Source: Gammaproteobacteria bacterium
GTDB lineage: Bacteria > Pseudomonadota > Gammaproteobacteria > SZUA-229
Length of the DNA stretch: 35,732 nt
NCBI GenBank assembly: GCA_026195255.1
Contig: JAPHSS010000065.1
Coordinates: 1-35,732 of the forward strand
Direction of reading: 5' to 3'
Positions 2,430-21,329 of this stretch are shown here, piece by piece (the stretch's first letter is position 1; the number at the start of each line of letters is the position of its first letter). The notes below the pieces were generated by a model. That model had not been told where the DNA came from. It worked only from the letters and a program-made list of their open reading frames with translations, and did no database searches. A program made the position numbers and the translations under genes.

Positions 2430-2666
2430 ATGCTTGTGAACTTCCGCTATTGGCGAAAGCTGACATTGAGCATGGGTCAAAACAGGTGCCAGAGTTGTTT
2501 TATTTGCTTATTGTTTAACTGATTAGTTAAATAATCAGCCCATGACTAATACTTCAGGCTAAACCAACTGCATAAAACACCAAACCATTCAAATTTTTCA
2601 TATATAAAAACACCCCAATCTCCCGTATATTATCCAGCTCCATCATCCCCCAGTAATTGAGTGAAT

Positions 2667-5600
2667 ATGAGCAAAGAATCAATCATCGTCAAAGGCGCTC
2701 GGCAGAACAATTTAAAAAACCTGGATATAGAGCTACCCACTAATGAGTTGATCGTGGTCACCGGGGTTAGTGGCTCAGGTAAGTCGACACTGGCTTTCGA
2801 TACAATATATGCGGAAGGCCAGCGGCGTTATGTGGAAACCTTTTCAGCCTATGCGCGACAGTTTCTTGATCGGATGGATAAACCGGCGGTAGACAGTATT
2901 CAGGGCATACCGCCGGCAATCGCCATTGATCAGACCAGTCAGGTGCGTACTTCTCGCTCAACTGTGGGCACCATGACCGAGTTAAATGACTATTTAAAAC
3001 TGTTATTTGCGCGTATGGCTCAGTTGTACTGTACCGGTTGCGGTCGTGAAGTGATAAGTGATTCAGCACAAAGCATTGTTGATTCACTTTATAAACAGTT
3101 TGCAGACAACCAGAGAGTGATGCTCTGTTTACCTGTAAAAATACCTCATAACTTTACTGAAGAAGAAATAGTTAAGTTATTAAATCAGCAGGGTTACACA
3201 CGTATACATCAACGTCATGGTGATTTGCTGGAAGTTATACAGGACCGGTTTAAGTTAAACGAAGATAACAGGGACAGGTTAACAGAAGCCGTAGAAGCTT
3301 CATTAAAACATGCAAATGGTCGTTTACATGTATTCCCTTTAGATGAGAATAAAAAAGCAGGTAAGGCTATACGTTTTTCAAATCATCATCACTGCCCCGA
3401 CTGTGATATTGAATTTAGTGAGCCCAGCCCGAGTTTGTTTTCATTTAATTCGCCTGTTGGGGCCTGCGAAAGCTGTAAGGGCTTTGGGCGTATTATTGGT
3501 GTTGATTATGGTCTGGTTATACCTGATGAATCTAAAACACTTGAAGAGGGCGTTATAAAACCCATACAAACCCCGAGTTATATTGATGTTCAGGAAGAAC
3601 TCATTAGTTTTGCGAAAAAGAAAAAAATCCCGGTAAATAAAGCCTGGAATAAACTCACAAAGAAACAGCAACGTTGGGTTATTGAAGGCGAAGGTGACTG
3701 GGATGACGGTGTATGGTTTGGCTTGCAGCGATTTTTTAAATGGCTGGAAAGTAAATCTTATAAAATGCACATTCGTGTTTTATTATCAAAATACCGCTCG
3801 TATACACCCTGTGGCACCTGTGACGGCACCAGGTTAAAAGCACCCGCATTATGGTGGCGCGTGGGTAGTCTTGAATTATCAAATAAAGTGATTCAAGTTG
3901 AACAACGATATGTACCCAAAGGTTTAAATTTACCAGCCGATGTTATCAGGCAACTGCCAGGTTTGACCATCCGTGATGTAATGCAATTACCCTTGAGTCA
4001 ATGTGCAGAGTTTTTTAAATTATTAAAATTGCCAGAGGCATTTGATGAAGCCGCTCAGTTACTGCTCAGTGAAATTCGTTCACGTTTAAATTACTTATTA
4101 GAGGTAGGTCTGGGTTACCTTACACTTGATCGTCAGTCACGAACGTTAAGTGGTGGCGAGGTGCAGCGTATTAATTTAACAACAGCGCTGGGCACATCAT
4201 TAGTTAATACCTTGTTCGTGCTTGATGAACCGAGCATTGGCCTGCACCCACGTGATATAAATCGCCTGGTCAGGGTATTACATCGATTAAGAGATGCGGG
4301 TAACTCGTTGCTTGTTGTTGAACATGATCCACAGGTCATGTTAGCCGCCGATAGAGTTTTAGATATTGGCCCGGGGCCAGGAAAACAGGGTGGTGAAATT
4401 TGTTTTTACGGCACACCCAAACAGTTGTTGCGGGATAAGAAATCACTTACAGCTGCTTATTTATCGGGTAAGAAAAGTGTAAGCCCTGCACGAAGTGAAT
4501 TTTCGGAAGTCAGTGAAGATTATCAAACAGCTGATAAATTAAAAACAAAATTAATTCAAATAATTGGCGCAACAGAGCATAACTTAAAAAATATTGATGT
4601 AAGTTTTCCGTTACATCAGCTGGTTTGCATAACCGGGGTGAGTGGTTCAGGTAAATCTACGTTAATGAGAGATGTTTTATATCCATGGATATGTAAACAC
4701 AAAGGTAAATCAGTTGAAACACCCGGCTTATGTAAAAAAGTCACAGGTCATCATTATATCGATGATGTTGTTCTAGTAGACCAGAGCCCTATAGGAAAAA
4801 CCACTCGCTCTATCCCCGCTACCTATGTAGGTGCGTTTGATGTTATTCGTAAATTATTTATTAAGCAGCCTTTATCAAAAGAGCGTAACTATACCCCGGG
4901 TACATTTAGTTTTAACTCGGGTAATGGGCGTTGCCCTACCTGTTCGGGCAATGGTTTTGAAATGATTGAAATGCAGTTTCTTAGTGATGTGTATGTACGC
5001 TGCCCTGATTGTGATGGTAAACGATATCGGGATGAAATTTTACAGGTTAAAGTATTAGGTGATGTAGCCCTGAGTGCTAAAGAAAACCACTTAGAAGCAA
5101 AGTCGATTGCCGATGTTTTACAAATGACAGTCTCAGAAGCGCTGGTGTTTTTCGCTAATGAGGCCGACGTTGTTAAAGTATTACAACCCCTGGTTGATGT
5201 AGGCCTGCCTTATCTTCAATTGGGTCAGGCTGTGCCTACATTGAGTGGGGGCGAGGCGCAGCGTCTGAAGTTGGCGGGTCATCTGGCCAGAAATATAAAG
5301 AGTAAAAATTCAAAAACTGAAAAAGATAACAAGGGAACATTATTTTTATTTGATGAACCTACAACGGGGTTGCACTTTGATGACATTGCAACCTTAATGC
5401 AGGCTTTTCGCCAGTTAATTAATGCCGGTAACTCTTTACTGGTAATTGAACATAATCTTGATGTTATCCGTTGTGCAGACTGGATTATAGATATTGGCCC
5501 GGATGGCGGAGAGCTTGGTGGAGAACTGCTTGGTCAGGGGCCACCGCGCTTATATGCAGAAAGCAATAATAGTTATACGGCAATTGCCTTGCGTGAATAT

Positions 5601-8288
5601 GAAAAATCGTTTGACTCGTCTATATCGGAAGCGATGAATATTTTGCCAGCCAAATCGTCTGCTGTTAAAACAAATAAATCAATTCAGGTGCATAATGCGC
5701 GAGAGCATAATTTAAAAAATGTCGACATTGAAATACCTCGAAATAAATTTACGGTTATATCAGGGGTGAGTGGCAGCGGAAAAAGTACGGTTGCTTTTGA
5801 TATTATTTTTGCTGAAGGTCAGCGACGTTACCTTGAATCTTTAAATGCCTATGCAAGGCAATTTGTGCAACCCGCATCGAGACCAGATGTGGATGCAATT
5901 CATGGTATTCCGCCTACGGTAGCTATCGAGCAGAGAACTAGTCGAGGTGGTCGTAAAAGTACAGTAGCAACACTTACTGAAATTTATCATTACCTGCGCT
6001 TGCTGTATGTAAAGCTGGGTACACAATACTGCCCCGATTGTGAGGTTGCTATTGAACCGCAAACGCCTGATGCCATTCTTGCATTACTGCAAAAAGAATA
6101 TAAAAATCGCCAGGTAACTTTACTTGCACCTTTAGTGGTAGCACGAAAGGGTATTTACAATGAGCTTGCAAAATGGGCGGCTTCTAAAGGTTATCAGCAA
6201 TTACGTGTAGATGGCGAGTATGTGTCGACTGAGCCATGGCCAAAACTGGCACGATATAAAGAACACGATATTGAGTTACCGCTAGGCGAATTGAAAGTTG
6301 GGGTTAATAACGAGCATGAATTATCCGTATTACTCAAGCAGGCGTTAGATATGGGTAATGGGGTTGTTATTGTAGAACCACTTAAAAAAGTCACCAGCAA
6401 GCAGAAAGGCGAAGTTTTATATTCTACCGAGCGAGCATGCCCTTGCTGTGGTCAGGGGTTTGATGAGCTTGACCCCAGGTTGTTTTCTTATAATTCCAAA
6501 CATGGCTGGTGTGAGTCATGTTATGGCACTGGAGAAATGATTAAAGGTTTTGATGAAGAGCAATCAGGTGAGGAAGGGGTTTGGCTGGAAGATGAAGATA
6601 ATAGTTTAATAAAATGTAATGTTTGCGAGGGTCAGCGTTTAAACAATACAGCACTTTCTGTTCGCTTTCGAGATAAGTCTATTGCACAACTGGCGGCTAT
6701 GTCAGTTGATGATTCTGAGAAATGGTTTGCAAAACTTAAATTAAAAAATAATGAGCAGTTTATTGCGCGTGATTTACTAAAAGAGATGACCGCTCGATTA
6801 AGTTTTCTTAAACGGGTTGGTTTAAATTATTTAACCCTTGATAGATCTGCGCCTACTTTAAGCGGTGGTGAAGCACAGCGGATTCGTTTAGCCTCACAAT
6901 TAGGCTCTAATTTACAGGGGGTATGTTACATACTGGATGAACCTACAATCGGTTTGCATACACGTGACAATAGACAATTAATAGAAACACTGCGTGAAAT
7001 TCAAAAGCAGGGTAATACGGTACTGGTCGTAGAGCATGATGAAGACACTATTCGTGAAGCTGATTACCTGATTGATATGGGGCCGGGTGCAGGTGTTGAA
7101 GGTGGAGAAGTGGTTGCCCATGGAACCCTGAAGCAGATGATGAAAAATAAAAAATCATTAACTGGCCAGTTTATAAAAAGCCCATTACGTCACCCGATGA
7201 AAAACTTACGTGATTCTGAAAAACGCTTACAGTGGAAAGCGCAAGATATAAAAATAACAGCTGCAAGTGAAAATAATTTAGCAAATATAGATGTAACAAT
7301 ACCGCTTCGAAAACTGGTTGCGGTGTCGGGTGTAAGTGGCAGTGGTAAAAGCACACTTATTCGCTCTGTTTTATATAGCAACCTGAAAACATCTATAAAT
7401 AATCAACGTAGTAAGGCAGGGCGCAATAAAAAAATCACCTGGTCTGGCTGTAAAAACATTAAAGGCTGGGATTCTATTCAACGAATTTTAGAAGTTGATC
7501 AAACACCTATTGGTAAAACCCCACGTTCTTGCCCGGCTACTTATATTGGTATCTGGGACACTATTAGAAAGTTATTCTCGGACACGGTCGACGCACGTTT
7601 AAAGGGTTTTAAGCCAGGGCGTTTTTCATTTAACGCGGGTGATGGACGTTGTGATGCCTGTGGTGGTCATGGTATGAGAAAAATCGAAATGAATTTTTTA
7701 CCAGATGTGCGGGTTGAGTGTGAAGTTTGTCATGGCTGGCGTTTTAATGATGAAACGCTTTCGGTACGTTATAAAGACAAACATATAGGTGAAGTGCTGA
7801 GCATGAATGTTAAATCGGCTACTGAATATTTTTCAGCTATTCCAAAAGTGCATCATGCCTTGCAGCTGTTACAGGATGTAGGCCTGGGTTATTTAACCTT
7901 AGGCCAACAAAGCCCTACTTTAAGTGGTGGCGAAGCGCAGCGTATTAAACTGGTGGCGGAACTGGCTAAAGCAAATTCCGGCTCAATATCAAAAACACAA
8001 CAACATAGTCTTTACGTATTAGATGAACCGACGGTTGGGTTACATATGGCCGATGTAGAGAAACTACTGCGGGTTTTACACCGCCTGGTTGATGCGGGTA
8101 ACTCAGTGATTGTCATTGAGCATAACCTGGATGTAATAGCAGAAGCTGACTGGGTGCTCGATATGGGGCCAGAAGGCGGTAAATATGGCGGTAAACTTAT
8201 AGCTCAGGGTAAACCTGCTGATATATGTAAACGAAAACGTTCGCAAACAGGGATTTACTTAAGTGAGTTAATGGGTGTTATTCATTAA
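2667..8288 (+). CDS. uvrA: Tandem-fused double-length UvrA-like ATPase
   Basis: UvrA recognises bulky DNA lesions with UvrB in nucleotide excision repair; standard UvrA is about 940 residues with two ABC modules. This single ORF of about 1,875 residues carries four. Walker A motifs (GVSGSGKST) lie near residues 35, 659, 1035 and 1557, and ABC signatures (LSGGE[VA]QR) near 495, 861, 1400 and 1754. Each half has UvrA-type zinc-finger CxxC pairs, for example CPDC...CESC and CPTC...CPDC in the first half and CPCC...CESC and CDAC...CEVC in the second. The halves are diverged: the second has TSRGGRKSTV where the first has TSQVRTSRSTVG. Fused double UvrAs are known elsewhere, such as in Chlamydiae, so this is rare rather than unique. 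The start could be GTG 2661 or ATG 2667; I prefer the ATG, though the ribosome-binding site is weak. No uvrB, uvrC or ssb is adjacent. It may supplement an ordinary uvrA elsewhere. Confidence 0.93.
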   Translation: MSKESIIVKGARQNNLKNLDIELPTNELIVVTGVSGSGKSTLAFDTIYAEGQRRYVETFSAYARQFLDRMDKPAVDSIQGIPPAIAIDQTSQVRTSRSTVGTMTELNDYLKLLFARMAQLYCTGCGREVISDSAQSIVDSLYKQFADNQRVMLCLPVKIPHNFTEEEIVKLLNQQGYTRIHQRHGDLLEVIQDRFKLNEDNRDRLTEAVEASLKHANGRLHVFPLDENKKAGKAIRFSNHHHCPDCDIEFSEPSPSLFSFNSPVGACESCKGFGRIIGVDYGLVIPDESKTLEEGVIKPIQTPSYIDVQEELISFAKKKKIPVNKAWNKLTKKQQRWVIEGEGDWDDGVWFGLQRFFKWLESKSYKMHIRVLLSKYRSYTPCGTCDGTRLKAPALWWRVGSLELSNKVIQVEQRYVPKGLNLPADVIRQLPGLTIRDVMQLPLSQCAEFFKLLKLPEAFDEAAQLLLSEIRSRLNYLLEVGLGYLTLDRQSRTLSGGEVQRINLTTALGTSLVNTLFVLDEPSIGLHPRDINRLVRVLHRLRDAGNSLLVVEHDPQVMLAADRVLDIGPGPGKQGGEICFYGTPKQLLRDKKSLTAAYLSGKKSVSPARSEFSEVSEDYQTADKLKTKLIQIIGATEHNLKNIDVSFPLHQLVCITGVSGSGKSTLMRDVLYPWICKHKGKSVETPGLCKKVTGHHYIDDVVLVDQSPIGKTTRSIPATYVGAFDVIRKLFIKQPLSKERNYTPGTFSFNSGNGRCPTCSGNGFEMIEMQFLSDVYVRCPDCDGKRYRDEILQVKVLGDVALSAKENHLEAKSIADVLQMTVSEALVFFANEADVVKVLQPLVDVGLPYLQLGQAVPTLSGGEAQRLKLAGHLARNIKSKNSKTEKDNKGTLFLFDEPTTGLHFDDIATLMQAFRQLINAGNSLLVIEHNLDVIRCADWIIDIGPDGGELGGELLGQGPPRLYAESNNSYTAIALREYEKSFDSSISEAMNILPAKSSAVKTNKSIQVHNAREHNLKNVDIEIPRNKFTVISGVSGSGKSTVAFDIIFAEGQRRYLESLNAYARQFVQPASRPDVDAIHGIPPTVAIEQRTSRGGRKSTVATLTEIYHYLRLLYVKLGTQYCPDCEVAIEPQTPDAILALLQKEYKNRQVTLLAPLVVARKGIYNELAKWAASKGYQQLRVDGEYVSTEPWPKLARYKEHDIELPLGELKVGVNNEHELSVLLKQALDMGNGVVIVEPLKKVTSKQKGEVLYSTERACPCCGQGFDELDPRLFSYNSKHGWCESCYGTGEMIKGFDEEQSGEEGVWLEDEDNSLIKCNVCEGQRLNNTALSVRFRDKSIAQLAAMSVDDSEKWFAKLKLKNNEQFIARDLLKEMTARLSFLKRVGLNYLTLDRSAPTLSGGEAQRIRLASQLGSNLQGVCYILDEPTIGLHTRDNRQLIETLREIQKQGNTVLVVEHDEDTIREADYLIDMGPGAGVEGGEVVAHGTLKQMMKNKKSLTGQFIKSPLRHPMKNLRDSEKRLQWKAQDIKITAASENNLANIDVTIPLRKLVAVSGVSGSGKSTLIRSVLYSNLKTSINNQRSKAGRNKKITWSGCKNIKGWDSIQRILEVDQTPIGKTPRSCPATYIGIWDTIRKLFSDTVDARLKGFKPGRFSFNAGDGRCDACGGHGMRKIEMNFLPDVRVECEVCHGWRFNDETLSVRYKDKHIGEVLSMNVKSATEYFSAIPKVHHALQLLQDVGLGYLTLGQQSPTLSGGEAQRIKLVAELAKANSGSISKTQQHSLYVLDEPTVGLHMADVEKLLRVLHRLVDAGNSVIVIEHNLDVIAEADWVLDMGPEGGKYGGKLIAQGKPADICKRKRSQTGIYLSELMGVIH

Positions 8289-14313: not shown

Positions 14314-16026
14314 GTGCCTGCCCATAATACAGCTAAAATCAACGCCCCCGGTATGCCTGATGTACCTGTTATTGCTCTTGAGCTTCTTGATTTGACAAAT
14401 CATGAAGATGACTTGCAGCAAGCTGTTGATGATTTAATAGAAAAATACCCAAAATTTTTCAAAAGATTATTAAACATTATTAATTCTGATCATTTTAATT
14501 TAACAAGCAAAGTCAAAAATATCTATCAGGCAATCAGTATGTCGGGTATAGAGCGTTTTTCTCAACTGGCTATTACTCAGGTTATTTATCAAACATTAAA
14601 CCAGTATAAAATATTTGGTTTTGATATGCAGGTTTTCTGGCAAGATTCATTAAGACGCGCTGTAAGCGCAAGAATGACGGGTGAATTAATCGGTCTTGAC
14701 GCCAGTACATGTTTTACTGCCGGGTTTACTCAGGATATTGGGTTTCTGTTACTTTTTCTCGATCAACCTGATAAAGCTGCACTTTTTGGCGAGTTTCATA
14801 AGCGTGAACCTGAAGCCAGGTTAAGTATGGAGCAAAATGTATTTAAGCAACAACATAACACTCAGTTAGCAAAATTCATGGAATCCTGGAATATATTTCC
14901 TGAAATACGCTTACCGTTAAACTCACATCATGACACTAGCAAAACAGAACTTGATAAATCAGGCATGTCTGAGTTAGACAAACAGCTCTGTGAAGTTTTG
15001 TATTGTGCAGACTGGATGGCAGCTGTTTTTACCGCTGATGATAAAAGCCAGGTAATAAACAGATGTCGAAAAATTCTTTCAGAAAAATTTCATATGCAGC
15101 CTTATAGAGCGGAGGAATTACTTGAGGCTATACCTGATGAGGTTGACCTCACCGCTTTAGTTATGGGTATTCAAGTGAAAGAGCATGCTGCTTTTTCTCA
15201 AATATTATATAAAGCAAATATCAGACTTAATGAAGATAATGTAAATTTCCAGGAACTGACTTTACGTCTAGAGCAGGCATTAGATGAACGTGATCAATTA
15301 GCCAAAGAGATTAACAGGGAATTGAATTTAGCAAGAGAAATTCAACAAAGCTTGTTGCCTGAAAGTCAGGGTGATAATTATCCGGTAAATGGTATAAATC
15401 TATCAGCTAAAATTTTATCGGGTGATTTTTATGACTTTTTTGAATTAGACAATGGAAATATATATTTCAATTTGGGTGATGTGTCAGGTAAAGGCGTCAA
15501 TGCAGCGTTATTAATGGCTAAAACAAGTAGTTTATTTCGTTGCCTTGGTAAACGTATAGATGACCCCGGTGAGTTAATGCATGAAATTAACAATGAGTTA
15601 TGTGAAACATCAATACATGGCATGTTTGTGACTATGGTTGCAGGCTTATATTGCCCGCAAACGGGTGAAATTCAGTTAGTTAATGCCGGCAATCCACCCG
15701 CCTTATTGTTCCTGGAAAATGGACTCTGTCAGGAGTTTGAAGCTACGGCACCACCGTTAGGCGTAATGCCAGACACTATTTATTCAAAGTACACAATTAA
15801 TTTAAATAATGGAAGTTTATATATTTATTCTGATGGTGTGACAGAAGGTTATGTAAATGAAAAGTCGATGCTTGAGCTGGGTGGTTTGTTTAAACTAATA
15901 GCTAAAATGGATGATGACCTGACAGCCACTGAAAGGTTGAAGATAATAACTGATAAGTTTACACATACCGAGCTGCCTTTGAGAGATGATGTTACGATGT
16001 TGTTACTTGAAAAACCAGATAATTAA
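14314..16026 (+). CDS. HDOD-SpoIIE (PP2C) serine phosphatase
   Basis: A 570-residue two-domain regulator. Residues about 15-220 match the HDOD domain, a degenerate HD fold used for signalling; IEKYPKFFKRLLNIINS and GFTQDIGFLLLF are typical blocks. A helical linker (about 305-345) leads to a PP2C/SpoIIE phosphatase. Its metal-binding and core motifs are visible: SGDFYDFFEL near residue 370, GDVSGKGVNAALLM, NAGNPPALL, YSDGVTEG and RDDVTMLLL at the end. SpoIIE-type enzymes dephosphorylate STAS anti-anti-sigma proteins. The gene is followed after 4 nt by an RsbW-like kinase and then by a STAS protein, so the substrate is probably that STAS protein. The start is uncertain: GTG 14314 or ATG 14353, neither with a clear ribosome-binding site. 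An ATG at 14301 opens a different frame that stops after eight codons. Confidence 0.92.
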   Translation: MPAHNTAKINAPGMPDVPVIALELLDLTNHEDDLQQAVDDLIEKYPKFFKRLLNIINSDHFNLTSKVKNIYQAISMSGIERFSQLAITQVIYQTLNQYKIFGFDMQVFWQDSLRRAVSARMTGELIGLDASTCFTAGFTQDIGFLLLFLDQPDKAALFGEFHKREPEARLSMEQNVFKQQHNTQLAKFMESWNIFPEIRLPLNSHHDTSKTELDKSGMSELDKQLCEVLYCADWMAAVFTADDKSQVINRCRKILSEKFHMQPYRAEELLEAIPDEVDLTALVMGIQVKEHAAFSQILYKANIRLNEDNVNFQELTLRLEQALDERDQLAKEINRELNLAREIQQSLLPESQGDNYPVNGINLSAKILSGDFYDFFELDNGNIYFNLGDVSGKGVNAALLMAKTSSLFRCLGKRIDDPGELMHEINNELCETSIHGMFVTMVAGLYCPQTGEIQLVNAGNPPALLFLENGLCQEFEATAPPLGVMPDTIYSKYTINLNNGSLYIYSDGVTEGYVNEKSMLELGGLFKLIAKMDDDLTATERLKIITDKFTHTELPLRDDVTMLLLEKPDN

Positions 16027-16030
16027 AAAA

Positions 16031-16468
16031 ATGTTTAAACTAGAACGAATACATTTATTGTCTCGACCTGACATGCTGAAACCGCTGCGTAAATTCGTTC
16101 GTGAACTTGCTAAAAAGCTGAATTGCTGTGATGAAAGTTTAGAATGTCTGGTAATTGCAATTAATGAAGCTTGCATGAACGTAATGCAACATGCATATAA
16201 CAACAGGCAGGATGAGGAAATAATAATCGAGTTCTGGAAGGATAATGAAGATTTAGTGATAAAAATATTTGATTTTGCCGAAGAAGTTGAAATTGAAAAG
16301 ATTAAATCCAGAGACCTGGAAGATATAAGGCCAGGTGGATTAGGTGTACATTTTATTAATCAGTCTATGGATTGCGTAGAATATAAACATATTTCAAATG
16401 AAAAAGGCAATGTCCTGGAAATGCGGAAAAACTTGGGCGAGTCGATTGACTGTCCTACTAATAATTAA
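16031..16468 (+). CDS. RsbW-like anti-sigma serine kinase (HATPase)
   Basis: A 145-residue GHKL ATPase of the anti-sigma-factor/serine-kinase class. The N box is INEACMNVMQHAY, with the catalytic Glu and the Mg-binding Asn. The G2 box is GGLGVHFINQSMD, followed by a conserved late strand. The G1 box is odd: the family usually has D-x-G, while here it reads FDFAEEV, so the glycine is replaced by alanine. RsbW/SpoIIAB-type proteins bind a sigma factor or phosphorylate their STAS partner. I choose ATG 16031, 4 nt after the phosphatase stop; an upstream in-frame ATG at 15986 would overlap the phosphatase gene by 41 nt. It lies 8 nt before the STAS gene. Confidence 0.88.
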   Translation: MFKLERIHLLSRPDMLKPLRKFVRELAKKLNCCDESLECLVIAINEACMNVMQHAYNNRQDEEIIIEFWKDNEDLVIKIFDFAEEVEIEKIKSRDLEDIRPGGLGVHFINQSMDCVEYKHISNEKGNVLEMRKNLGESIDCPTNN

Positions 16469-16476
16469 GGTTATGT

Positions 16477-16803
16477 ATGAAATACCCGGTATCTAAACAT
16501 TTAAATTATTCTATAATTACTTTGTCAGGTGAAATAGATTTAAATGAATCACCTAATGTGAGAAAACAAATCCTGAATATTATAAATAATAATAACAGCT
16601 TATTAATTGATTTATCAAACGTTGAATATATAGATAGTTCAGGTGTTGCTAGTCTGGTTGAGGGTTTACAGACATCGCGTACAAAAAAGTTAAATTTTGC
16701 ACTGCTAGGTGTGAGTGAGTCGGCATTACAGGTTTTACAGTTAGCACGACTAGATACTGTTTTTACAATTTACAATTCTCTTGAAGAAGTAGAACAGGCT
16801 TAG
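16477..16803 (+). CDS. STAS protein: anti-anti-sigma / MlaB-like subunit
   Basis: A 108-residue stand-alone STAS domain. The signature LIDLSNVEYIDSSGVASL (about residues 43-60) contains D53-S54-S55-G56, the canonical phosphoserine site of SpoIIAA/RsbV proteins. A second block, KLNFALLGVSESALQVLQL, is the expected alpha/beta ending. It sits between a kinase gene and an MlaE-like permease gene. E. coli MlaB, the cytoplasmic subunit of the MlaFEDB lipid transporter, is also a stand-alone STAS protein, with a Thr at the comparable loop. So this protein could be the target of the switch, the fourth transporter subunit, or both. A ribosome-binding site AAGG precedes the ATG. The 12-nt gap to mlaE suggests co-translation. 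Confidence 0.88.
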   Translation: MKYPVSKHLNYSIITLSGEIDLNESPNVRKQILNIINNNNSLLIDLSNVEYIDSSGVASLVEGLQTSRTKKLNFALLGVSESALQVLQLARLDTVFTIYNSLEEVEQA

Positions 16804-16815
16804 TCAAAAAGTATA

Positions 16816-17607
16816 ATGAAACAACAAATTGAAAAAATAGGCAGAATTGCAACCGGAGCTGTTGAAGAGCTTGGTTACGGGATAATGCTTTTTGTTGAGT
16901 CAATATACTGGCTAATTTCAGGGCGCTTTAATAAACAACCGGTTTCATTAGCTTTGATTTTCACACAGGCAATGCAGATAGGTGTGCTCGCTACCCCGAT
17001 TGTCGTTATCTTATGTTTTTCAGTCGGTATGATGCTGGCTATACAGGGGCTGGAAACTCTCAAACCGTATGGGGCGCAGGCACAAGTTGTTAGCGGTATT
17101 GCGGTTTCGGTTACTCGAGAATTTTCTGCATTAATAACAGGCATTATTGTTGCGGGCCGATCAGGCTCAGCAATTACCGCGCGTATCGGTACGATGAAAG
17201 AATCGCAGGAAGTAGATGCATTGCAGGTGATTGGTATTAACCCCGTGCGTTATCTTGCGGCACCTGCGTTACTGGCAATGATTATTGTAATGCCAGTGCT
17301 CACTATATTTGGTGACCTAATGGGTATGTTAGGTGGCGGTGTATATACGTTATATGAATTAGGAATGCCGCTTGAAATATACATGGGGCGTAGTTTTGAA
17401 GCCATAAATGTCTTCGATATAATGCAGGGTGTATATAAAAGTATTATTTTCGCCGTATTAATAGTTATTGTAAGTGTATTAAATGGCTTTCAGGTGAAGG
17501 GAGGAGCTGAAGGTGTTGGTCTCGCAACAACACGTTCAGTTGTTATGTCTATAAGCGCCATTGTTATAGCCGATATGATATTCACTTTCTTTCTAACAAG
17601 AGTTTAA
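16816..17607 (+). CDS. mlaE: MlaE-like ABC transporter permease
   Basis: A 263-residue inner-membrane permease of the MlaE/YrbE family. The family blocks are clear: an interfacial N-terminal helix, GMMLAIQGLETLKPYG, REFSALITGIIVAGRSGSA, IGTMKESQEVDALQVIGINP (the ATPase-coupling loop), and a hydrophobic C-terminus. In the Mla system MlaE dimerises with MlaF ATPases and an MlaD hexamer to move phospholipids between the inner and outer membranes. It is the first of four transporter genes and is separated from mlaF-like by 2 nt. Confidence 0.93.
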   Translation: MKQQIEKIGRIATGAVEELGYGIMLFVESIYWLISGRFNKQPVSLALIFTQAMQIGVLATPIVVILCFSVGMMLAIQGLETLKPYGAQAQVVSGIAVSVTREFSALITGIIVAGRSGSAITARIGTMKESQEVDALQVIGINPVRYLAAPALLAMIIVMPVLTIFGDLMGMLGGGVYTLYELGMPLEIYMGRSFEAINVFDIMQGVYKSIIFAVLIVIVSVLNGFQVKGGAEGVGLATTRSVVMSISAIVIADMIFTFFLTRV

Positions 17608-17609
17608 TC

Positions 17610-18467
17610 ATGACAGATCCTCACAACGAGTCTTTAATTCATGTAGACAACCTGGTCACACATTATGCTGATAAGAAAATACTTAATGGTATAAACCTCG
17701 ATGTCAAAAAAGGCGAAATAATGGTGATTATGGGGGGCAGTGGTTCAGGTAAGAGCACATTGCTTCGTTATATGCTGGGTTTAAATAAACCTACCTCTGG
17801 TTGCATTAAATTGTTAGGCCAGGACATTACAAAAATGTCAGCCAATGAGCTTCATCAAATGAAAAAAGAAATTGGTGTGTCATTTCAGGGTGGCGCATTG
17901 TTTGGATCAATGACGGTCTCTGAAAACATTCAGCTGCCTTTAACGGAGCACGCTAATCTCGATATCAATACAATGAAAATAATGAGTCAGATGAAACTGG
18001 AAGTTGTCAATATGGCAGGTTTTGAAGACTTGATGCCATCGCAATTGTCCGGTGGCATGATCAAACGCGCAGCTTTAGCCAGGGCGATTATTCTTGATCC
18101 GAAATTACTGTTTTTTGATGAGCCCTCCGCTGGGCTAGACCCTGTGGTATCGGCCGAATTAGATGAATTGATCTTGCGTTTGAGAGATGCAATGGGTATG
18201 ACTATAGTGGTGGTTACTCATGAGCTGGAAAGTGCATTTAAAATCGCCGATAGAATAACTATACTGGATAGAGGAGATATTTTGATGTGTGGTAGCGTTG
18301 ATGAAGTCAGAAATAGTGATAACCATCGTATCTATAATTTATTACACAGAAAACCGAGACGTGACGTAGTCGATGTCGATGAATACTTACAAAGATTAAC
18401 CGGTAAAAGCCTCGACTCAGTACCTGAAAAATCCAATATTCATAATCCAGATAATTCAAGATATTAA
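17610..18467 (+). CDS. mlaF: MlaF-like ABC transporter ATPase
   Basis: A 285-residue ABC ATPase of the Mce/Mla class. Walker A is GGSGSGKST (residues 42-50), the signature LSGGMIKRAALARAI starts near 145, Walker B is LLFFDEPSAGLDPV near 165, and the H-loop is VVTHE near 203. Changing Q to M in the signature (LSGGM rather than LSGGQ) is usual for MlaF. The C-terminal extension past about residue 245 (LLHRKPRRDVVDVDEYLQ) is longer than in a minimal ATPase. In MlaF a C-terminal extension contributes to dimer contacts and borders the MlaB site, so this tail is relevant to the STAS protein upstream. It begins 2 nt after the permease stop. Confidence 0.93.
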   Translation: MTDPHNESLIHVDNLVTHYADKKILNGINLDVKKGEIMVIMGGSGSGKSTLLRYMLGLNKPTSGCIKLLGQDITKMSANELHQMKKEIGVSFQGGALFGSMTVSENIQLPLTEHANLDINTMKIMSQMKLEVVNMAGFEDLMPSQLSGGMIKRAALARAIILDPKLLFFDEPSAGLDPVVSAELDELILRLRDAMGMTIVVVTHELESAFKIADRITILDRGDILMCGSVDEVRNSDNHRIYNLLHRKPRRDVVDVDEYLQRLTGKSLDSVPEKSNIHNPDNSRY

Positions 18468-18473
18468 TTACAT

Positions 18474-19328
18474 ATGAAAAAAGAAAATACAAATTATTTT
18501 ATGGTTGGAATTTTCGTACTGGCAGGCCTGGCGTTATTCTTAATTATGTTATTTAAAATAACCGGGGGGCAGTCAAACTCTGACGAATATTTTGTAGAGT
18601 TTGATAATGTAACCGGAATTAAAGATGGCATCGTTGTCACCTATGGTGGTTATGCTATTGGTGCAGTTAATGGTGTTGAGCCCGTGTTTAATTCTGCTAA
18701 GACTGTTTACAAATTATCGCTACGGGTTAAATCAAACTGGAAAATACCTGATGACAGTACAGCTCAAATTGTTATGCCTGCAATTATCTCTGATAAACAA
18801 ATAGAAATATCACAAGGCACTTCCACCGAGTATTTATCACCTGGAGATACCCTGAAAAGTGCAGAAGCTGTGGATATTATGGAGCTTGTTGATTCAATTG
18901 CTTCGCAGCTTAATGAGTTTATTCCCCAGTCAACAAAAAATGTAAACGCGCTTATTGCAAAGTTAAATCATTCTGCCAATAAAGTTTCAATTTTATTAAG
19001 TGACGAAAATATTCGACACATGAATAATATATTCAAACATGCTGATTCTTCAGGTAAAAGTTTATCTGAGCTGGCGTTGGGGTTTACACGAATTAATAAA
19101 CAGCTTGATAGTATCCTCAGCCGAACAGATCTGATTTTAAACGATAATAGTGAAGACATACGTTACACCGTAATAGAACTTAAAAAATCAATTGATGTTG
19201 TTTCCGGGCGTATAGAGTCAGTTATGTATAACCTGGATGCAACAAGTCAGAATATGAATGAGTTCAGTCGAGAGTTACGCAACAACCCGGGTGTAATACT
19301 GGGTAGTAAACCACCAGTTGATAAGTAA
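18474..19328 (+). CDS. mlaD: MlaD-like MCE-domain protein
   Basis: A 284-residue single-pass protein. One helix (about residues 10-28, MVGIFVLAGLALFLIMLF) anchors it, and a MCE domain follows (about 38-120) with YFVEFDNVTGIKDG, VTYGGYAIGAV and QIEISQGTST. MCE domains form hexameric rings that shuttle lipid across the periplasm. Residues about 130-260 form a long, weakly conserved helical tail with heptad-like spacing, longer than in E. coli MlaD (183 residues). This is closer to the architecture of Mce proteins that work with a PqiC-type lipoprotein. It is 6 nt from mlaF-like. Confidence 0.9.
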   Translation: MKKENTNYFMVGIFVLAGLALFLIMLFKITGGQSNSDEYFVEFDNVTGIKDGIVVTYGGYAIGAVNGVEPVFNSAKTVYKLSLRVKSNWKIPDDSTAQIVMPAIISDKQIEISQGTSTEYLSPGDTLKSAEAVDIMELVDSIASQLNEFIPQSTKNVNALIAKLNHSANKVSILLSDENIRHMNNIFKHADSSGKSLSELALGFTRINKQLDSILSRTDLILNDNSEDIRYTVIELKKSIDVVSGRIESVMYNLDATSQNMNEFSRELRNNPGVILGSKPPVDK

Positions 19329-19340
19329 AAAGGAATATTA

Positions 19341-19946
19341 ATGTTACGAATCGTTATATTGCTGTTAATAATAAATAATATTGTTTCCTGTAGTCTGGGT
19401 GGTGGCCCGGCACCACAGGATCATTTTTATCGATTACCAGAGGTTAAATTAGATGGCCTGAGTGAGTCTAGTCAGGTTAGTTATAAAAATATTGTGATTA
19501 AACCTGTGAAAGCCACGGGTTTATACCATGAACGGGCTATTTTATTTATTGAAAGTCATAAACCGTTAGAACTGCAGCGTTATCATTATAGTTTCTGGTC
19601 TTCTACACCCGCAGAATTAACTCATAATGCCTTATATGAAGGCTTGCGATCAAGCGGCATAGTGACTCATGTTAGCAGAGGTTTATCTGAGCTAAGGCCA
19701 GATTACATAATTGATACACGAATTATTCAGTTTGAACGTTATATCGATAATTCTGCTGTTAATATTCAGCTTGCATTAGATATTTCAGTGCGTAGCGGCC
19801 ACACAGCTGGCTTAACATGGACTAAACGTTATAAGGTCAGTAAAACACTAGACTCAACAGATATGCATGCCTCTGCAGAGGCCTTTGGAGAGGCCTTCAA
19901 GGAGATATCGACGTTGTTAGTTAATGACCTGTTGAACAAAAAGTAA
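19341..19946 (+). CDS. ABC-type transport auxiliary lipoprotein (PqiC/LIPO family)
   Basis: A 201-residue lipoprotein. The signal peptide ends in a lipobox NNIVSC, with the acylated Cys at residue 17, and the segment after it, APQDHFYRLPEV, is typical of the auxiliary lipoprotein family (PqiC, YmbA). The family lies beside MCE transporters and is thought to act as an outer-membrane-anchored partner. It stands in place of MlaC and MlaA, neither of which is in the window. The ribosome-binding site AAGGA before ATG 19341 is good, and the gap to the MCE gene is 12 nt. This is the last gene of the operon. Confidence 0.87.
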   Translation: MLRIVILLLIINNIVSCSLGGGPAPQDHFYRLPEVKLDGLSESSQVSYKNIVIKPVKATGLYHERAILFIESHKPLELQRYHYSFWSSTPAELTHNALYEGLRSSGIVTHVSRGLSELRPDYIIDTRIIQFERYIDNSAVNIQLALDISVRSGHTAGLTWTKRYKVSKTLDSTDMHASAEAFGEAFKEISTLLVNDLLNKK

Positions 19947-20465: not shown

Positions 20466-21329
20466 TTAATGTTTCTGTTTAATATTCGTGGCTTCTTTAT
20501 TTATTAACATTGTGCGTAAATTTGAAACAATTTTATGTGTGTTATGACAACGAGCACATACCGTTACAGCGATCTCCCCCATAATTTTCTGACTGGTTTT
20601 AGTATTGCCCTCGCGAATGTTCATTTGTAATTTATCAATATTGTTTGCTGTCATACTGCCTAATATGCGCTCTTTAGGGTAGGCATCGTCTTTATGGCAT
20701 GTAGAACAGCTTTCACCCATATTTTTTAACTGTAAGTTAAGGTCATTGCTGGCAGTTAGGGCTTGTTTGTTTTTACCGTCAGACAGGGCAATTAATATCT
20801 GGTTAATATATGTGGATAATTCCTGCATTGTATTTTCAATATTCTGTGGATTACCATCATTGTCCTTAATTCGAATATTACTGTAATCAGGTGAACGATA
20901 AATAGCTGCTACCTGTGCCTGATAGTCTTTATGACAGCTATCACAGCTATCCGAAATTTTGTTAAGCGTTAAGGCAACCTGATAAAAATTTTCATCATTA
21001 GTAAATTTAACTAACTGGGCTGTCAAATCAGGCTTGATTTTATCTTTCCATTCAGGAATCATGTCAGAAAGGCTATTATAATGTTTATTAAAGTTTATCA
21101 GCCATTTACGCATACTGTCTTTATCTTCCTGTTCAGCGTATTGTCTCAAGGCCTGCAGTTCACGACGTAGTTTAAACATGGTGTGTAACCAAACCTGACG
21201 CTTGTTGTCCGGCTTGTACCATTTAGCTAAAGAGGCAGGTGCCTGCTTTAAATTAATCGTCTCAGCATGTGTTATATGGCTGCTAAAAATAATTTGTGAA
21301 ATAAAAATTATGAGAAAAAATAGTTTCAT
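20466..21329 (-). CDS. Tri-heme periplasmic cytochrome c
   Basis: A 287-residue protein with a signal peptide ending THA-E (about residue 22) and three c-type heme sites: CDSCH at 129-133, CSTCH at 208-212 and CARCH at 258-262. Between the sites the sequence is mostly helical. The first two sites share a spacing of about 80 residues and a similar frame (SCDSCHKDY, SCSTCHKDD), which suggests duplicated single-heme units resembling cytochrome c-prime-like bundles. It probably carries electrons in the periplasm; the partner is unknown. It lies 4 bp after the exonuclease I stop on the same strand, so the two are likely co-transcribed, an unusual pairing. Confidence 0.85.
   Translation of the reverse strand: MKLFFLIIFISQIIFSSHITHAETINLKQAPASLAKWYKPDNKRQVWLHTMFKLRRELQALRQYAEQEDKDSMRKWLINFNKHYNSLSDMIPEWKDKIKPDLTAQLVKFTNDENFYQVALTLNKISDSCDSCHKDYQAQVAAIYRSPDYSNIRIKDNDGNPQNIENTMQELSTYINQILIALSDGKNKQALTASNDLNLQLKNMGESCSTCHKDDAYPKERILGSMTANNIDKLQMNIREGNTKTSQKIMGEIAVTVCARCHNTHKIVSNLRTMLINKEATNIKQKH

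Follow-up and report, generated by a model that had tools for sequence, protein, structure and literature searches.

Genetic coupling of a partner-switching phosphorylation module to the ATPase of an MCE-type lipid transporter in gammaproteobacteria

What does a partner-switching module control when its genes stand directly in front of those for a lipid transporter? The question is raised by a seven-gene operon on contig JAPHSS010000065.1 of a gammaproteobacterial assembly (GCA_026195255.1), of which we analysed positions 1 to 35,732, hereafter termed the window (35,732 nucleotides). The operon joins a SpoIIE-type phosphatase, an RsbW-like kinase and a STAS protein to an ATP-binding cassette (ABC) transporter of the MCE/Mla type, and the original prediction, made from this DNA alone, held that a phosphorylation cycle could control lipid transport through the STAS protein. 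One part of this claim is strongly supported by co-occurrence, linkage and split operons, namely that the cycle is genetically coupled to the transporter and specifically to its ATPase, MlaF. We further consider it likely that the operon's product is an MCE-type lipid ABC transporter whose MlaB equivalent, the STAS protein, is under a serine phosphorylation cycle that switches MlaF; here the STAS-MlaF binding, the phospho-transfer to serine S54 and the direction of the switch are predicted by analogy.

The operon spans positions 14314-19946 and consists of seven intact genes on the + strand:

14314..16026, + strand: HDOD-SpoIIE phosphatase, 570 amino acids (Pfam HDOD at residues 14-207, 101.9 bits; SpoIIE at 380-566, 126.4 bits)
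16031..16468, + strand: RsbW-like GHKL serine kinase (Pfam HATPase_c_2, 86.6 bits)
16477..16803, + strand: STAS protein (Pfam STAS, 69.2 bits), with DSSG at residues 53-56 (S54, S55)
16816..17607, + strand: MlaE-like permease, 263 amino acids (Pfam MlaE, 221.3 bits)
17610..18467, + strand: MlaF-like ATPase with a C-terminal extension (Pfam ABC_tran, 114.5 bits)
18474..19328, + strand: MlaD-like MCE protein, 284 amino acids, with an extended C-terminal part (Pfam MlaD, 43.8 bits, residues 37-115)
19341..19946, + strand: ABC-type transport auxiliary lipoprotein (ABC_trans_aux, 36.5 bits), with a lipobox-like N-terminal IVSCS recognized by eye

The gaps between the genes are 4, 8, 12, 2, 6 and 12 nt when the kinase is taken to start at ATG 16031 (the list of open reading frames gives an upstream ATG at 15986, which overlaps the preceding gene). 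Since the reading frames are intact and all Pfam matches of the seven proteins exceed their cut-offs, the gene order, spacing and family labels first assigned to the operon were borne out, as was the position of the STAS gene, with its DSSG site, directly before the permease. By Pfam, MlaE, an MlaF-type ATPase and MlaD are encoded together as in MCE/Mla-type systems; none of the three reaches the cut-off of its E. coli-type NCBIfam model (MlaE, MlaF, MlaD), and the permease lies marginally under that of TIGR00056 (211.1 bits vs a cut-off of 212.2). No MlaC appears among the seven proteins in the list of open reading frames or in the Pfam results, which separates the operon from canonical E. 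coli-type Mla, and the permease has no Pfam STAS match, so it is not a STAS-permease fusion of the Brucella Mpc type.

Do the kinase and the transporter belong together beyond this genome? Across 370 genomes of the class, the kinase subfamily occurs in 56 (E 7e-37 or better) and the window-type MlaF subfamily in 58 (E 1e-80 or better); because the next kinase match lies only at 5e-24, the 16 further genomes, of 72, with matches at that value and worse were left out. Both are present in 55 genomes, the kinase only in one (G341; G, L and C numbers are our handles for genomes, loci and contigs) and MlaF only in three (G064, G119, G274), giving a Fisher p of 8e-61 in which relatedness is not accounted for. 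Counted by family, 32 families hold either protein: 30 have both, two MlaF only and none the kinase only. The two genes lie 5 kb or less apart in 50 of the 55 genomes, 46 on one strand; the remaining five comprise one contig break (G147) and four unlinked cases (G096, G169, G232, G422).

Gene order around the kinase was followed in two further sets. Searching 145 relatives turned up the kinase in 26 genomes, the source included (weak matches in G005 and G053 were left out of the follow-up), and the regions around 20 of these matches show the seven-gene operon, or its remainder at contig ends, at 9/9 loci from the same family (L049-L057, of which L051 and L057 are cut) and at 6/11 more distant loci, two of these six with a different domain ahead of SpoIIE. 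When named genomes were scanned with an alignment of the kinase, 133 loci were obtained, of which we took the best 80, nearly all from assemblies titled gammaproteobacterial or proteobacterial. The loci of this study include one from a named strain, Methylohalomonas lacus HMT 1 (L162). STAS adjoins the kinase in 78 of these 80 and a SpoIIE match is adjacent in 72. The order STAS-MlaE-MlaF is found in 53, STAS-MlaE cut by the contig end in five, STAS-MlaF with an E-D-(A)-C-type MlaE after it in three, and STAS-MlaF without a permease in five (L163 and L198 are cut inside MlaF, L175 ends 0.5 kb past it), while 14 have neither MlaE nor MlaF nearby. Because loci found by their kinase have an adjacent STAS in 78 of 80 cases and STAS-MlaE-MlaF in 53, the arrangement is not a product of chance. 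Thirteen of those 14 genomes were checked for MlaF elsewhere (all but that of L130, which lies on a 6-kb contig): ten have it at an identity of at least 53%, and three (L171, L172, L197) have only matches of at most 49%. Four loci (L137, L174, L186, L197) come from metagenome bins titled Klebsiella pneumoniae; their operons resemble those of other uncultured gammaproteobacteria, and the titles look wrong.

Which part of the transporter does the module follow? Where the operon is broken up, the kinase-STAS pair tracks the ATPase MlaF, not the permease. All six genomes examined in which STAS is followed by MlaF with no MlaE on the contig (G075, G218, G335, G446, G447, G448) carry an MlaF-less MlaE-D-A operon elsewhere; G446 has just one MlaE in its genome and, at E 1e-40, one MlaF match. 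G098 has the module in front of MlaF, which is followed by an MlaE-D-A-C permease set; the MlaF there is 69% and the MlaE 30% identical to those of the window, and the contig has no STAS_2 match besides the cassette STAS. The unlinked genomes place MlaF at the head of an MlaF-E-D operon, often with MlaC nearby, and the kinase module elsewhere; no STAS or MlaB match was found in the fetched flanks of these operons, which measure 1.5 kb in some cases. G444 shows the reverse split, where STAS stays with MlaE-MlaF-MlaD-lipoprotein and the kinase and phosphatase lie elsewhere. At L107/L128 and L168, an MlaF-less MlaE-D-A-C set stands downstream of a window-type operon, which suggests that one MlaF may serve two permeases. 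It is from the split operons, the permease swap of G098 and the unlinked cases that we name the ATPase rather than the permease as the partner.

What kind of protein is the STAS component? It scores 73.3 bits against the anti-sigma factor antagonist superfamily model TIGR00377 (cut-off 53.45) and 30.6 bits against the canonical MlaB equivalog NF033618 (mlaB_1; cut-off 90). Its AlphaFold2 single-chain model, with a predicted local distance difference test score (pLDDT) of 95.8, is closest in fold to anti-sigma antagonists, whose best rows run from Z 17.4 to 15.5: 3f43 at Z 17.4 (root-mean-square deviation, rmsd, 1.4; 108 aligned), RsbV (6m36) at 16.6 (rmsd 1.6; 99 aligned) and SpoIIAA (1thn) at 15.6. 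The 98-residue chain of P. aeruginosa MlaFEBD that we took as MlaB (7cha) gives Z 12.1 (rmsd 2.1; 94 aligned). Canonical MlaB is described in passages of PMC7367683 as a minimal STAS fold that lacks the final strand and helix found in SpoIIAA-type proteins; the window model has a short version of both, with a two-residue strand at about 98-99 and a helix at 102-107. The protein is thus RsbV-type by family in what is probably an MlaB-like role, and the name MlaB-like that it had been given suits this role and not its family.

The motif points the same way. A phospho-site serine beside a GHKL kinase gene, as in RsbV and SpoIIAA, is the rule here, since DSSG stands in 97/97 STAS proteins examined and STAS adjoins the kinase in all but two of the best 80 loci (motifs were counted over 109 distinct loci kept of 129 after removal of duplicates, with MlaF required to have at least 52% identity and at least 240 amino acids). 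In SpoIIAA and RsbV the phosphate is carried by the motif's first serine, which in the window protein is S54 and opens helix 54-69 of the predicted model. T52 of E. coli MlaB is treated as the site equivalent to this phospho-serine in passages of PMC7367683 and PMC5016091. We rejected the second serine as a marker of phosphorylation: canonical MlaBs of these genomes have A or G there in 16/17, but the anti-sigma antagonist TM1442, of solved structure, also reads D-S-A-G at the aligned place, so that DSSG vs DSAG marks family and not chemistry.

Could another MlaB serve the window transporter? The source genome (3.56 Mb in 70 contigs) has one MlaE locus besides the window, namely the canonical mlaF-E-D-C genes of contig C29, accompanied by a small STAS of their own, the canonical MlaB (C29:102252-102521), so the window transporter is a second system. 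The genome's separate MlaB thus sits in its own mla locus, and the STAS protein of the operon is the only STAS match on the window's contig. The window kinase is clearly the best HATPase_c_2 match of the genome (86.5 bits vs 27.8 for the next). Contig C31 (L015) holds a second partner-switch locus, where a protein of 565 aa, which by eye combines a receiver with PP2C-like and HATPase parts, lies near a 140-aa STAS frame.

Is the module likely to be active? The phosphatase, kinase and STAS motifs of the window look intact. The phosphatase has GDFYD at 370, GDVSGKG at 388, SDG at 506 and RDD at 557; in relatives, a pattern for SDG only missed the third motif in 55/91 proteins, at least some of which carry TDG (e.g., L063). 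Kinase residues E46, N50, D81, G102, G103 and G105 are invariant in 23 homologues, and the motifs ExxxN and PGGxG are found in 98/100, with S for the first G in L139 and A for P in L258. The Pfam domain ahead of SpoIIE is variously HDOD, GAF or a receiver (REC). Eleven loci have phosphatase and kinase in one open frame (HDOD in L061, L248 and L262; GAF in L153, L259-L261 and L263-L266; Pfam was run on L259, L261 and L262), and at L148 and L163 kinase-STAS-MlaF is seen with no adjacent phosphatase. We infer that the HDOD-SpoIIE protein combines a sensor domain with a PP2C-type serine phosphatase that would dephosphorylate the STAS protein, and that the RsbW-like kinase would phosphorylate and sequester it.

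On the side of the ATPase, the candidate point of contact is its C terminus. In E. coli MlaF, according to passages of PMC7367683, the short helix of a C-terminal extension puts Y261, L265 and L266 into the MlaF-MlaB groove. Window MlaF has Y259 and L263, spaced as Y261/L265, within a predicted terminal helix 256-264 (pLDDT of the block about 54-63, single-chain model), and this helix may be a STAS-contacting element. L263 is invariant and Y259 almost invariant in 21 MlaF sequences, and the C-terminal motif is kept in 83/84 homologues, the exception being G119, whose transporter has no adjacent STAS module. The MlaFs of this study end 63-83 residues after the H-loop; the one MlaF seen beside a fused STAS-MlaE (L115) ends 54 after it. 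The listed in-frame cases of STAS and MlaF all have the two about 1.1-1.2 kb apart with MlaE between them.

How might such a switch work? The gene set, the intact catalytic motifs and the linkage and co-occurrence with MlaF are established, and no other STAS was found beside these ATPases. In the cycle that we propose, unphosphorylated STAS would bind MlaF, probably on the face used by canonical MlaB, and STAS-bound MlaF would join MlaE and hydrolyse ATP, as judged from E. coli MlaB, which passages of PMC5016091 and PMC7367683 describe as required for MlaF to join the complex. The RsbW-like kinase would phosphorylate STAS on S54, and may also hold the unphosphorylated form; MlaF would lose its partner and lipid transport would stop, until the SpoIIE phosphatase, driven by HDOD (GAF or REC in relatives), restored STAS. 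Release upon phosphorylation is proposed by analogy with two cases: E. coli MlaB, where T52 is close to the middle of the MlaF interface and T52E lowers MlaF binding (passages of PMC7367683), and SiaC-SiaD, where SiaC activates its output by binding it when unphosphorylated and is kept from binding once SiaB has phosphorylated it (passages of PMC8457831).

Several observations weigh against a phosphorylation cycle that acts on MlaF through the STAS protein, and the first of them come from genomes where the partners part. L171 (= G341), L172 and L197 retain the kinase as well as a STAS of the DSSG type, adjacent or elsewhere (unlinked in L172), without an MlaF above 49% identity, so kinase and STAS can persist without the transporter; L197 and L254 have the kinase-STAS pair beside CHASE2-type or FHA/PP2C-like genes (named by eye), with neither transporter nor SpoIIE phosphatase. 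Conversely, G119 has MlaE-F-D-Aux without adjacent kinase or STAS, G274 has MlaF-E-D with the MlaF C-terminal motif kept and no such STAS detected in the genome, and G064, where the contig start cuts the locus, yielded neither a STAS of this type nor the kinase. With tblastn, a strongly diverged MlaB near the unlinked MlaF operons could have been overlooked. Coevolution was uninformative: mean-field direct coupling analysis of paired alignments, with three re-paired controls each, gave top scores of 1.59 for STAS-RsbW (N 96; controls 1.37-1.49), 1.88 for STAS-MlaF (N 73; 1.31-1.63) and 2.08 for STAS-MlaE (N 64; 1.18-1.74); all three stand only modestly above their controls, and STAS-MlaE gives as much signal as STAS-MlaF. 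The pair of E104 with L260, the latter in the MlaF C-terminal motif, scored high and was not used as evidence.

The three genomes that retain the kinase without this MlaF would suit a conventional partner switch, where an unlinked sigma factor or other regulator is bound by the kinase and set free by the STAS protein, and the transporter is merely co-transcribed or a member of the regulon. The STAS family fits as well, being nearest to anti-sigma antagonists by TIGR00377 and by fold (Z 17.4 to 15.5 vs 12.1 for the MlaB chain). However, such a switch leaves three things unexplained: kinase and STAS remain beside MlaF where the permease lies apart, the co-occurrence extends to the unlinked genomes, and the cassette is kept when the permease type changes. 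The original prediction had also pointed to the absence of a sigma-factor gene from the operon, and by eye none was noticed among the open reading frames of the window or the listed neighbours, a reading made with no sigma-factor model and confined to the window within this genome. We regard the conventional switch as unlikely.

A second set of objections concerns the serine. Canonical MlaBs that do not adjoin this kinase keep the first serine in 17/17 cases, so conservation of S54 alone is not evidence of phosphorylation and the residue may have a structural or catalytic role. In addition, passages of PMC5016091 report that E. coli MlaB T52A stays bound and the complex assembles, with ATPase activity abolished, which is a poor fit to simple phospho-control. 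Both results would favour a STAS protein that is a constitutive structural MlaB subunit, with kinase and phosphatase exerting only a slow control of assembly or turnover, or having another main target. Against this stand the conserved kinase motifs and DSSG, the fusion of phosphatase and kinase in eleven loci, and the varying HDOD, GAF and REC sensors, as expected of an active signalling cycle, and we think a purely constitutive subunit quite improbable.

If the STAS protein does switch MlaF, a broader picture can be sketched, which we put forward only tentatively and with some doubt: the kinase-STAS-MlaF cassette may be an exchangeable, phosphorylation-gated engine of lipid transport, with sensors swapped on one side and permeases (MlaE-MlaD-lipoprotein or MlaE-D-A-C) on the other. 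If so, one gated ATPase would power two permeases in some genomes (L107/L128, L168), and MlaB would be a member of the switch family that lost its kinase.

The surroundings of the operon can be described briefly. Between 13950 and 20500, promoter-like sites number 25 vs 25.8 in shuffles and terminator-like sites 2 vs 3.6, and these counts were given no weight. The divergent neighbour on the other strand starts with a MoxR-type AAA ATPase gene (Pfam), and downstream, also on the other strand, 20466-21329 encodes a multi-haem c-type cytochrome-like protein. Elsewhere in the window are a double-length UvrA of 1875 aa with two UvrA interaction-domain stretches (2661-8288) and a protein with a C-terminal PEP-CTERM motif barely above the cut-off (1607-2377).

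What would the coupling mean? Our results suggest that many gammaproteobacteria tie a partner-switch module to the ATPase of a lipid pump and may switch transport through the attachment and removal of a phosphate, and the kinase-MlaF co-occurrence spans 30 families of one class. If true, the serine switch would be a post-translational control of envelope lipid traffic, and the ABC-transporter ATPase a new output for partner switching, apparently a novel variant. Among the matches listed in open-licence PMC, no title or abstract opening mentions a module of kinase and phosphatase linked with Mla or MCE transporters. Phosphorylation of MlaB is a hypothesis left open in PMC5016091 and PMC7367683 (Thong 2016, Kolich 2020), whose available passages name no kinase; with kinase and phosphatase encoded together with the STAS-MlaF pair, it would become testable in a tractable system.

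How, finally, does the operon compare with known systems? As far as the passages cited go, it shares with E. coli Mla an MlaE/MlaF/MlaD-type ABC transporter with one STAS encoded beside it, a hydroxyl at the same motif position (T52 there, S54 here) and a C-terminal stretch of MlaF that runs out in a short helix (PMC5016091; PMC7367683). Unlike E. coli Mla, it has an RsbV-type STAS with the full DSSG and extra C-terminal elements, adjacent kinase and phosphatase genes, and an auxiliary lipoprotein in place of MlaC. Brucella Mpc, in a passage of PMC12436622, likewise combines an MlaE/MlaF/MlaD-type transporter, whose MlaD-like protein is extended, with a STAS domain, which there is fused to the permease N terminus, whereas here it is free. 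With RsbU-RsbV-RsbW and SpoIIE-SpoIIAA-SpoIIAB the operon shares three protein families with intact motifs and a STAS fold that matches RsbV and SpoIIAA, but no sigma factor was noticed nearby and the conserved neighbour is MlaF. The architecture fits a partner switch with a non-sigma output of the type of P. aeruginosa SiaABCD, where phosphatase, kinase and STAS-like protein are encoded with their output protein (passages of PMC8457831); that system acts on a diguanylate cyclase, and its SiaC is a DUF1987 protein, whereas the output here would be the ATPase of an ABC transporter.

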